Shown here in pieces: positions 9,756 to 23,736 of a stretch of DNA of 23,736 bases. The stretch spans positions 1 through 23,736 of the IMG/VR virus record IMGVR_UViG_3300025736_000206; one strand, written 5' to 3'. Under the pieces are notes generated by a model, which saw only the letters and a program-made list of their open reading frames with translations, had not been told where the DNA came from and did not search any database. Each line of letters begins with the position of its first letter. Position 1 is the first letter of the stretch. Origin of the DNA: a virus. Position numbers and translations under genes: made by a program.

Positions 9756-10250
9756 TTAAATTGCTGAGTTTGGATTTTTCGGTTCTTCTGTTTTTTGTTT
9801 TTCAACAGGAGATATTTCTTCTAATCTGTTTTTAAATGCTTGGAGCGCAACTGCCGCGGTTCTCATATTTCTAACTTCTGTGAATTTTTTTGATTCTGTT
9901 AATGACTTCTTAGCTTCATTTACCGTCAAAAAATTAATCTCATTTTTTATAACAGGATTACTAAGAGCTGCTCTGGCGTTTTGTTGATACCTAATTTTCT
10001 CAGCATGATCTAACTTTTCATAATCAAACCATTTTACTTCATTATTTGAAAACAAATAATTAAGAACATTTTTAGGATCTTTTGAATATTTAATTTGATC
10101 TTGCAGTTGTTCTTGTAATTCATTTGTAAGATCTATCTTTATTAATAATTCTTCCTGCAACTCAACCGCTGTATTAGTAAGCCTTTCAATTTGCTGTAGA
10201 AGATCTTTATTTAACTTTTCAGCTAAAATACGTTTTATTTTTTCAAACAT
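9756..10250 (-). CDS. Coiled-coil protein next to portal
   Basis: A 164-residue, helical, Lys/Glu/Leu-rich protein. Residues 1-60 are a long coiled coil (LAEKLNKDLLQQIERLTN, TAVELQEELLIKIDLTNELQEQLQ), followed by a helical globular part (YEKLDHAEKIRYQQNARAALSNP, VNEAKKSLTESKKFTEVRNMRT) and a polar tail. It lies 15 bp after the portal gene. Position suits a head assembly, neck or minor capsid function, but there is no specific motif. Translation starts at ATG 10248-10250 without Shine-Dalgarno. Confidence 0.62.
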   Translation of the reverse strand: MFEKIKRILAEKLNKDLLQQIERLTNTAVELQEELLIKIDLTNELQEQLQDQIKYSKDPKNVLNYLFSNNEVKWFDYEKLDHAEKIRYQQNARAALSNPVIKNEINFLTVNEAKKSLTESKKFTEVRNMRTAAVALQAFKNRLEEISPVEKQKTEEPKNPNSAI

Positions 10251-21813: not shown

Positions 21814-21845
21814 CCATTGACCACCAGTCAATGGTATAATATATA
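21814..21845 (+). promoter_or_regulatory. Promoter with operator copy C
   Basis: TTGACC (21817-21822), 17-bp spacer, then TATATA (21840-21845). The exact palindrome CCATTGA-N7-TCAATGG lies at 21814-21834 and contains the -35, in the same register as at 18199. It starts the second rightward unit (21876 onward). Confidence 0.65.
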
Positions 21846-21875: not shown

Positions 21876-22460
21876 TTGGATTTAGTAGGAGCCGATATTA
21901 AAAGCTCTAAAAAGTTTATTTTTACGACTTGCCGGTACCATTTTAAATGTGTCTATATACATTCTTGGTCAGCTACTGACAAACATGATCAAGAATTATA
22001 TAATCATATTATGTCATACAAAGAAACAGATTTAGCCTCTGATATTTCAAAATGGATTAGAAATGAATTCAAGCAGTCGCAGACTGCTTACATTGATCTT
22101 CCTCCCCCACTCCAAAATTCAGCCCTACTTGAATACAAAATAACAAAAACAAACACATTTAATTACAAAAGTTGGTTAAAAAGTGAACCACAACAGTTTC
22201 ATAGCCTCAAAAAAGCAAAACATGACTATATTTACTTCAAATTATCTGATTTAGACCCAAGAAGAAAGCCAGCTGACGCAATGTTACTCGTGGCTTCCCA
22301 TGCCTACCTCACAATTTGTTGGTATAAAAAAAGAACTAAAAAACAAGTTTACTTTATTGACATTGATGAAATTGAAAAGGATATGAAGGTGAATAAAAGC
22401 TTGACTGAGAAGAAGGCTAAGGAGATTGCGGTTTATGATTTTAAGATAAAGAGTAGTTAA
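21876..22460 (+). CDS. Unknown protein, possible nuclease-like fold
   Basis: A 194-residue protein. A TTG at 21876, about 24 nt from the expected transcription start, is the best start (the first in-frame ATG is 45 codons later and would cut a well-patterned region). The C-terminal half, with KHDYIYFKLSDLDPRRKPADAM, LVASHAYLTICWYKK, VYFIDIDEIE and SLTEKKAKEI, resembles a phage protein type I associate with PD-(D/E)XK nucleases, but the usual acidic-x-Lys pair is not clear (ICWYKK). A recombination or DNA-processing role is only a guess. The N-terminal half is unrecognised. It is followed two bases later by the hammerhead-bearing RNA element. Confidence 0.6.
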   Translation: MDLVGADIKSSKKFIFTTCRYHFKCVYIHSWSATDKHDQELYNHIMSYKETDLASDISKWIRNEFKQSQTAYIDLPPPLQNSALLEYKITKTNTFNYKSWLKSEPQQFHSLKKAKHDYIYFKLSDLDPRRKPADAMLLVASHAYLTICWYKKRTKKQVYFIDIDEIEKDMKVNKSLTEKKAKEIAVYDFKIKSS

Positions 22461-22461
22461 T

Positions 22462-22617
22462 TAACATCAAAGATGCGCCGTGGGGAGTGTGGTAGCGCAA
22501 GACGAAGCCACCCAGTGTACACCTAAGACTGATGAGCTTTTAAGAAGTGAAACATTTAATGTATCTTAGGCTCTACAGGGTGGTTGTGGTAGAGACAAGG
22601 CTCCCCCTTCGATGTTA
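22462..22617 (+). ncRNA. 156-nt structured RNA enclosing the hammerhead
   Basis: Nested helices from outside in: 22462-22472/22607-22617 (11 bp with one A-C mismatch), 22482-22487/22601-22606 (6 bp), 22508-22513/22578-22583 (6 bp, plus a G-U at 22507/22584), then hammerhead stem I. The direct repeat TGTGGTAG lies on both sides (22488-22495 and 22585-22592). GCGC at 22475-22478 can pair with GCGC at 22494-22497. The ends abut the stop of the upstream gene and the leader of the next gene. No known class beyond the hammerhead core is recognised. Confidence 0.7.
22522..22570 (+). ncRNA. Hammerhead self-cleaving ribozyme (type I topology)
   Basis: All parts of the core are present in order: stem I CCTAAGA/TCTTAGG (22522-22528/22564-22570), CTGATGA (22529-22535), stem II GCTT/AAGT with loop TTAAG (22536-22548, closing pair G-U instead of the usual G-C), GAA (22549-22551), and A22552-T22562 as the invariant A15.1-U16.1 pair of stem III (ACAT/ATGT, loop TTA). 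The H17 base is A22563, giving the permitted cleavage triplet GUA. The predicted cut is between 22563 and 22564. Both ends leave through stem I. It would cut the early mRNA between the unknown gene at 21876 and the one at 22634, leaving a 70-nt leader on the latter. Confidence 0.85.
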
Positions 22618-22633
22618 GTTAATTAGTAAAAAT

Positions 22634-22846
22634 ATGGAACACATAGCTAAAAAAGTAAAAATAGTATCAGGAAAATACACAGGATTTTATGGCGTAATAA
22701 TTGCTTATAATAATATGTGGTTTACTGTAGCATGTACTTGTATTAATTGTGATCCTATGTACGAACATCTTATTAAAGTTAGACAAAAAGAAATTATGGA
22801 AGTTAGAATTGTGGAAACTAAGAAACTTGTAAGACTTGGTGGGTAG
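22634..22846 (+). CDS. Small KOW-like protein
   Basis: A 70-residue basic protein. Residues 7-25 (KVKIVSGKYTGFYGVIIAY) have the pattern of a KOW motif (V-x-V-x-x-G-x-x-x-G-x-x-G), a small RNA- or protein-binding beta unit seen in NusG and ribosomal proteins. The middle has CTCINC (a CxxxxC pair, possibly metal-binding), and the end is basic (EVRIVETKKLVRLGG). If the upstream hammerhead cleaves, this mRNA begins with a 5'-OH 70 nt before the ATG. A role with RNA or transcription is possible but inferred. Start ATG follows TTAATTAGTAAAAAT. Confidence 0.62.
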   Translation: MEHIAKKVKIVSGKYTGFYGVIIAYNNMWFTVACTCINCDPMYEHLIKVRQKEIMEVRIVETKKLVRLGG

Positions 22847-22881: not shown

Positions 22882-22905
22882 CAAATCAAATTAATTTAAT
22901 TCAAG

Positions 22906-23007
22906 CGGTCGGGAAACGAGGCATTGGGTGTACTCCACCAACCGATCGGGCAACAGGCATGATACATATCTATCTATTATTATATAGCCGGATTGGATTA
23001 CCAGTCC
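22906..23007 (+). ncRNA. Structured leader of the pentapeptide-repeat gene
   Basis: CGGTCGG/CCGATCG (22906-22912/22942-22948, one G-U) stacks on TTGG/CCAA (22924-22927/22938-22941) with an 11-nt bulge. GGATTGG/CCAGTCC (22990-22996/23001-23007, one G-U) follows with an ATTA loop. The stretch is GC-richer than its surroundings. It lies in the 200-bp gap before 23048. No hammerhead core or known riboswitch is recognised; it may be a leader RNA of the pentapeptide-repeat gene. Confidence 0.38.
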
Positions 23008-23039
23008 CTTGATTGCTCTTTTCTTTAAATAATAACTTA

Positions 23040-23166
23040 AATAATATATGAAAAAACTAACTAAACAAGAAGCCCTAGATAAGATAGAAGAACTTAAAAA
23101 ATACATTGATAAGAAAGAGGAAAAAGGAATAATTATTTATAGAATAGATGATACTGTTTTATTTGA
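23040..23166 (+). repeat. 127-bp perfect direct repeat (other copy 23610-23736)
   Basis: Bases 23040-23166 equal 23610-23736 without a difference; the match starts eight bases before the ATG and is cut by the window edge, so it may be longer. The copies are 570 bp apart. Confidence 0.95.
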
Positions 23167-23593: not shown

Positions 23594-23617
23594 TTAATTA
23601 ACTCTACCTAATAATAT

Positions 23618-23736
23618 ATGAAAAAACTAACTAAACAAGAAGCCCTAGATAAGATAGAAGAACTTAAAAAATACATTGATAAGAAAGAGGAAAAAGGAAT
23701 AATTATTTATAGAATAGATGATACTGTTTTATTTGA
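23618..23736 (+). CDS. Second pentapeptide-repeat gene copy (partial)
   Basis: A tandem copy of the preceding gene, cut by the right edge after 39 codons and two bases. The 119 coding bases and eight upstream bases are identical to 23040-23166, so only the conserved N-domain is in view and the repeat region is not seen. Identity without a single change points to a very recent duplication or to ongoing gene conversion. An assembly artefact at a contig end is also possible if the window edge is a contig end. Confidence 0.75.
   Translation, partial: MKKLTKQEALDKIEELKKYIDKKEEKGIIIYRIDDTVLF

Follow-up and report, generated by a model that had tools for sequence, protein, structure and literature searches.

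A type I hammerhead ribozyme motif at the tip of a long predicted RNA hairpin between two phage genes

The intergenic locus and its hammerhead motif

The window analysed here spans all 23,736 bases of the IMG/VR record IMGVR_UViG_3300025736_000206, which encodes recognisable large and small terminase subunits and a capsid protein. By capsid protein its nearest relatives are L005 (77%) and L006 (53%), with 31 more records at 41–53%. One of its two transposases matches only Patescibacteria (WWE3, Magasanikbacteria and one other), which tentatively suggests a patescibacterial host. An exact 127-nt repeat was found at 23040–23166 and 23610–23736, and the record ends within the second copy of the start of a pentapeptide-repeat gene, where the assembly probably broke at a tandem duplication.

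Direct reading of the + strand revealed a complete type I hammerhead between a gene for a 194-aa protein and one for a 70-aa protein, with every element where the first-pass annotation had placed it. The genes and the parts of the motif are as follows.

21876–22460, + strand: upstream gene, 194 aa, hypothetical, with homologues in three related phage records
22522–22570, + strand: type I hammerhead ribozyme, complete (direct reading, covariance model R1 and shuffle test)
22522–22528, + strand: 5' strand of stem I, CCUAAGA, partner of 22564–22570 (reading; pairing probability 0.87–0.99 in the unconstrained ensemble)
22529–22535, + strand: core CUGAUGA, C3 to A9 (direct reading)
22536–22548, + strand: stem II, GCUU-UUAAG-AAGU, 4 bp, closing pair G10.1-U11.1; arms GCTT (22536–22539) and AAGT (22545–22548), loop TTAAG (reading; probability about 0.73)
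22549–22551, + strand: core GAA, G12 to A14 (direct reading)
22552–22562, + strand: stem III, ACAU-UUA-AUGU, 4 bp, closed by A15.1-U16.1; arms ACAT (22552–22555) and ATGT (22559–22562), 3-nt loop TTA (reading; weak alone, probability about 0.24)
22563–22564, + strand: predicted cleavage site, 3' of A17 in the GUA triplet (established hammerhead chemistry)
22564–22570, + strand: 3' strand of stem I, UCUUAGG, predicted 5'-OH end of the downstream product (reading)
22634–22846, + strand: downstream gene, 70 aa, with a weak KOW motif (E 0.00093, below the Pfam cut-off), starting 70 nt past the predicted cut

The hammerhead consensus is CUGANGA...GAAA...UH. At the locus, the CUGANGA and GAA(A) elements lie at 22529–22535 and 22549–22552, A22552-U22562 forms the A15.1-U16.1 pair, and A22563 is A17, giving a GUA triplet with the expected H at position 17. 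Three helices of 7, 4 and 4 bp surround this core in type I order; stem I is a perfect 7 bp and all core bases are intact. The closing pair of stem II, as had been noted earlier, is G10.1-U11.1 instead of the usual G-C. A G10.1-C11.1 pair at this position is a strong preference in hammerheads, not a strict requirement. The annotation had further called the flanking genes early, which exceeds the evidence: apart from a MerR-like regulator, the genes of the + strand are small and hypothetical.

For a chance estimate, the window was dinucleotide-shuffled and both strands were searched with a descriptor. When this required the core, GAA followed by A, U-H and minimum stem lengths of 7/4/4 bp, 2 motifs arose in 31,754 shuffled windows (175 when the stems were loosened to 4/3/3), and the site at 22522–22570 is the sole descriptor match in the real window. 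Folding with the core constrained gave −55.8 kcal/mol against −56.1 kcal/mol for the free fold, the two being nearly isoenergetic (within 0.3 kcal/mol), and stem III is outcompeted in the free ensemble. Stem I has an internal loop, CA/CUC, and stem II the loop UUAAG; whether the two touch in a tertiary contact is beyond what secondary structure can show.

Several other features were observed nearby. A palindrome, CCATTGAC-CACCA-GTCAATGG (21814–21840), lies immediately 5' of a TATAAT sequence upstream of the 194-aa gene and is operator-like. Downstream of the KOW-like gene, 22903–23020 is rich in hairpins (CGGUCGG...CCGAUCG and GGAUUGG...CCAGUCC), with no Rfam match and a fold no better than that of shuffles. 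A delta-type ribozyme at 22906–22970, considered for a GGGCAAC after a 7-bp stem, was rejected, having no Rfam match up to E 10.

Covariance models and related phage hammerheads

Rfam reports no match at its gathering cut-off for the element at 22522–22570. The best match was Hammerhead_HH9 (RF02275), with 22.6 bits (gathering score 52) and an E-value of 0.0043 for 621 bases; the covariance search proposed in the first-pass annotation returned a hammerhead family, at a score under threshold. HH9, known from vertebrate introns, resembles the window element in its type I order and in a stem I prolonged past an internal loop, but differs in its eukaryotic intron context and in its sequences outside the core. 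At seven other phage loci holding about 20 clear hammerheads, Rfam likewise reports none at its cut-offs. The low score is therefore not evidence against the window hammerhead, and the Rfam gathering cut-offs are an unsuitable yardstick for phage hammerheads.

A covariance model, R1, was built from 27 phage hammerheads of the IMG/VR survey described below, with the window left out. In the window it gave one strong match, the element itself, with 41.3 bits and E 1.9e-11, the runner-up scoring 12.9 bits. Among 73 R1 matches in the window and the phage loci the element ranks 53rd, inside the score range of phage hammerheads. For the R1 alignment stem III was shortened to 5 bp and a 4-nt loop; no other helix is affected. 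Covariation within the helices of the alignment is strong, with 138 cells in which both sides have changed compared with 37 in shuffles; this describes the model and is no independent proof, the sequences having been chosen for pairing and stem III shortened.

To place the element among other phage hammerheads, IMG/VR was scanned with a loose pattern, followed by a helix check. At least 120 stretches were recovered (L013–L132); in most of them the type I hammerhead is complete, and a single phage frequently has several. Among the matches listed, the closing pair of stem II is G-C in 93 of 95 motifs and G-U in two, frequencies that are biased by a scan pattern demanding fixed stem II and stem III bases and a downstream GTA. 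At least one of these two is a clear hammerhead, one of six in L036, and has the same combination of a G-U closing pair and a GUA triplet as the window element. Stem II of the window element is almost identical to that of L080 (GCUUUUAAUAAGC) and of similar phage hammerheads, and phage and prophage type I hammerheads likewise have a 4-bp stem II with an A/U-rich loop. Also among the matches listed, the distance from cut to start codon has a median of 31 nt in the 57 hammerheads with a usable downstream gene (within 60 nt in 46 of them), stem I lies on or adjoins the upstream stop codon in many, none lies inside a long gene, and 19 motifs in type III order were seen.

The window element shares its core, topology, intergenic site and gene strand with the intergenic type I hammerheads of phages and prophages (PMC3088659 and IMG/VR). 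It differs from the surveyed phage hammerheads in its prolonged, rod-like stem I (mostly bare and about 6 bp long in the others), in its G-U pair and in the 70 nt to the next ATG, where the others have a median of 31 nt.

No homologue keeping the element was found with its DNA, the 194-aa gene, the KOW-like gene, the stem II/G-U pattern or the flank pattern as query, so no covariation could be obtained at the locus itself. R1 detected no hammerhead in 33 related phage records, many of which are fragments. The three related records with relatives of the 194-aa gene contain none by R1, and none is visible in the DNA that follows that gene. No close relative of this genome region is present in the collections searched, and the ribozyme looks like either a local acquisition of this phage or one shared with closer relatives that those collections lack. 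The first-pass annotation had proposed that a sub-threshold score with no homologues keeping the core would count against a ribozyme. For Rfam both were literally found, but the test is invalid because clear phage hammerheads also score below threshold and close relatives are absent from the collections searched.

Applied to 380 genomes from the phylum of G004, R1 gave eight weaker matches. Six of these pass a pairing check for the type III order; they are hammerhead-like motifs in genomes of the Patescibacteria group (L174, L175, L176, L179, L180 and L181), each near position 1500.

The identification made from the first reading is borne out: core and helices, together with independent covariance modelling and many phage parallels, give good support to a type I hammerhead with predicted cleavage. 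The element is a real further example of the already-known phage hammerheads (PMC3088659), in an unusual setting.

The flanking rod and the predicted fate of the cut ends

Downstream, 70 nt separate the predicted cut from the start codon, and the distance on the upstream side is 62 nt. In folds, the sequences flanking the hammerhead pair with each other, so that the entire intergenic region becomes one rod of about 170 nt with the ribozyme at its tip.

22455–22521, + strand: 5' half of the rod, prolonging stem I, with paired segments 22455–22468, 22482–22487, 22507–22513 and 22516–22519 (duplex energy, folds)
22571–22624, + strand: 3' half of the rod, in which 22611–22624 pairs with 22455–22468 (14 bp), 22601–22606 with 22482–22487, 22578–22584 with 22507–22513 and 22574–22577 with 22516–22519 (duplex energy, folds)
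22571–22594, + strand: alternative hairpin CUCUAC...GUAGAG, possible near the 5' end of the freed 3' product (fold of product)

The stop codon of the upstream gene (22458–22460) falls within the outer stem, and about 10 nt lie between the end of the stem's opposite strand and the start of the 70-aa gene. The duplex of 22461–22521 with 22571–22633 has an energy of −39.8 kcal/mol, equalled in 2 of 5,000 shuffles (4e-4) in a test made only after the rod had been noticed. The ends of the rod resemble an inverted repeat; a reading as a mobile element was rejected, the record containing no second copy.

Cofolding of the two cleaved halves gave −60.6 kcal/mol, compared with −31.1 kcal/mol for the separated halves, so that about 29 kcal/mol favours annealing. 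The cut is thus predicted to break the strand yet not by itself to part the ends. The first-pass annotation had the ribozyme separating the gene at 21876 from the gene at 22634; the predicted cut position stands, while the parting of the messages does not follow from it, because the halves are predicted to stay annealed.

A subgroup of the surveyed phage hammerheads, L041 (7153), L105 (the same site), L047 (1941) and L043 (12179–12223, − strand), also has flanks that can pair past an internal loop in stem I. The internal loop common to them, in which AUUU faces a C-rich segment, is absent from the window element, and there is no sequence similarity outside the core. The L043 contig, besides its prolonged-stem hammerhead, has an Rfam match to DUF2815 RNA at 9988–10047 (− strand, 73.5 bits).

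Probable message processing and alternative readings

Intergenic hammerheads of phages and bacteria have been shown to cleave both in vitro and in E. coli (Perreault et al. 2011, PMC3088659). What they do in phages is still debated (PMC6155905); one proposal has them dividing long transcripts into gene-sized messages (PMC3088659).

For the window element, we consider it probable that a cis-acting type I hammerhead processes the message of the 194-aa and 70-aa genes, the ends remaining annealed in the rod. Acting in cis on a message that spans both genes, the ribozyme would cut 3' of A22563; the upstream fragment would then end in a 2',3'-cyclic phosphate, and the downstream fragment would begin with a 5'-OH. 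A polycistronic phage message would in this way be processed so that each gene gains its own RNA end, as at other phage gene junctions. With stem I prolonged by the paired flanks, the ends would stay annealed until ribosomes, helicases or RNase III opened the rod. Cleavage, co-transcription and an effect on the two genes are here what we infer. We counted in favour of this reading the complete core, its rarity in shuffles, the R1 match, the L080-like stem II, the intergenic site, the near-equal energy of the core-constrained fold, the published cleavage by intergenic hammerheads and the rod energies, and against it the G-U closing pair, the short and weak stem III, the lack of a homologue, the 33 related records in which R1 detected no hammerhead, and the 70 nt to the start codon against a median of 31.

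An alternative that we regard as unlikely takes the rod as the working part, with the ribozyme cutting and re-joining reversibly within it and so adjusting the rod rather than separating messages; the rod might, for example, couple translation of the two genes or present a double strand to RNase III. The above-chance pairing of the rod, its inclusion of the upstream stop codon, its end just before the next start and the energy predicted to hold the cleaved halves together all agree with such a hinge, as does the efficient ligation by hammerheads with tertiary contacts (PMC6155905). Against it, no homologue preserves the rod, a Shine-Dalgarno sequence is not seen in the outer stem, and co-transcriptional cutting could come before the rod is complete. 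A more specific form, in which translation of the upstream gene opens the reversible hinge and the downstream gene, or the stability of its RNA, is governed by the state of the rod, seems to us quite unlikely.

We think it very unlikely that the motif is a degenerate, inactive hammerhead, formerly active but since weakened by its short stem III and its G-U pair, and now retained only as sequence or as the rod. The rarity of the G-U pair in the survey, the pairing probability of stem III and an R1 score in the lower third of phage hammerheads are what would be expected of such a relic, but the intact core and perfect helix I, together with the L036 hammerhead that likewise combines G-U with GUA, speak against it. 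Chance resemblance is hardly credible: in a scan of many windows a motif expected at 6e-5 per window will sometimes arise, and the element has no homologue, but its intergenic position, the extra rod pairing, the phage-like stem II, the R1 E-value and the frequency with which true hammerheads occur in phages all speak against coincidence.

The survey shows that Rfam cut-offs miss the phage hammerheads tested. Phage type I hammerheads typically lie on or beside the stop codon of one gene, with the next start some 30 nt further on, an arrangement consistent with message processing. The ribozyme type is already known in phages, and what is unusual here is its predicted seat at the end of a long hairpin. 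The locus is a compact case, and its rod yields a clear prediction, namely that the message would be cut but not parted.
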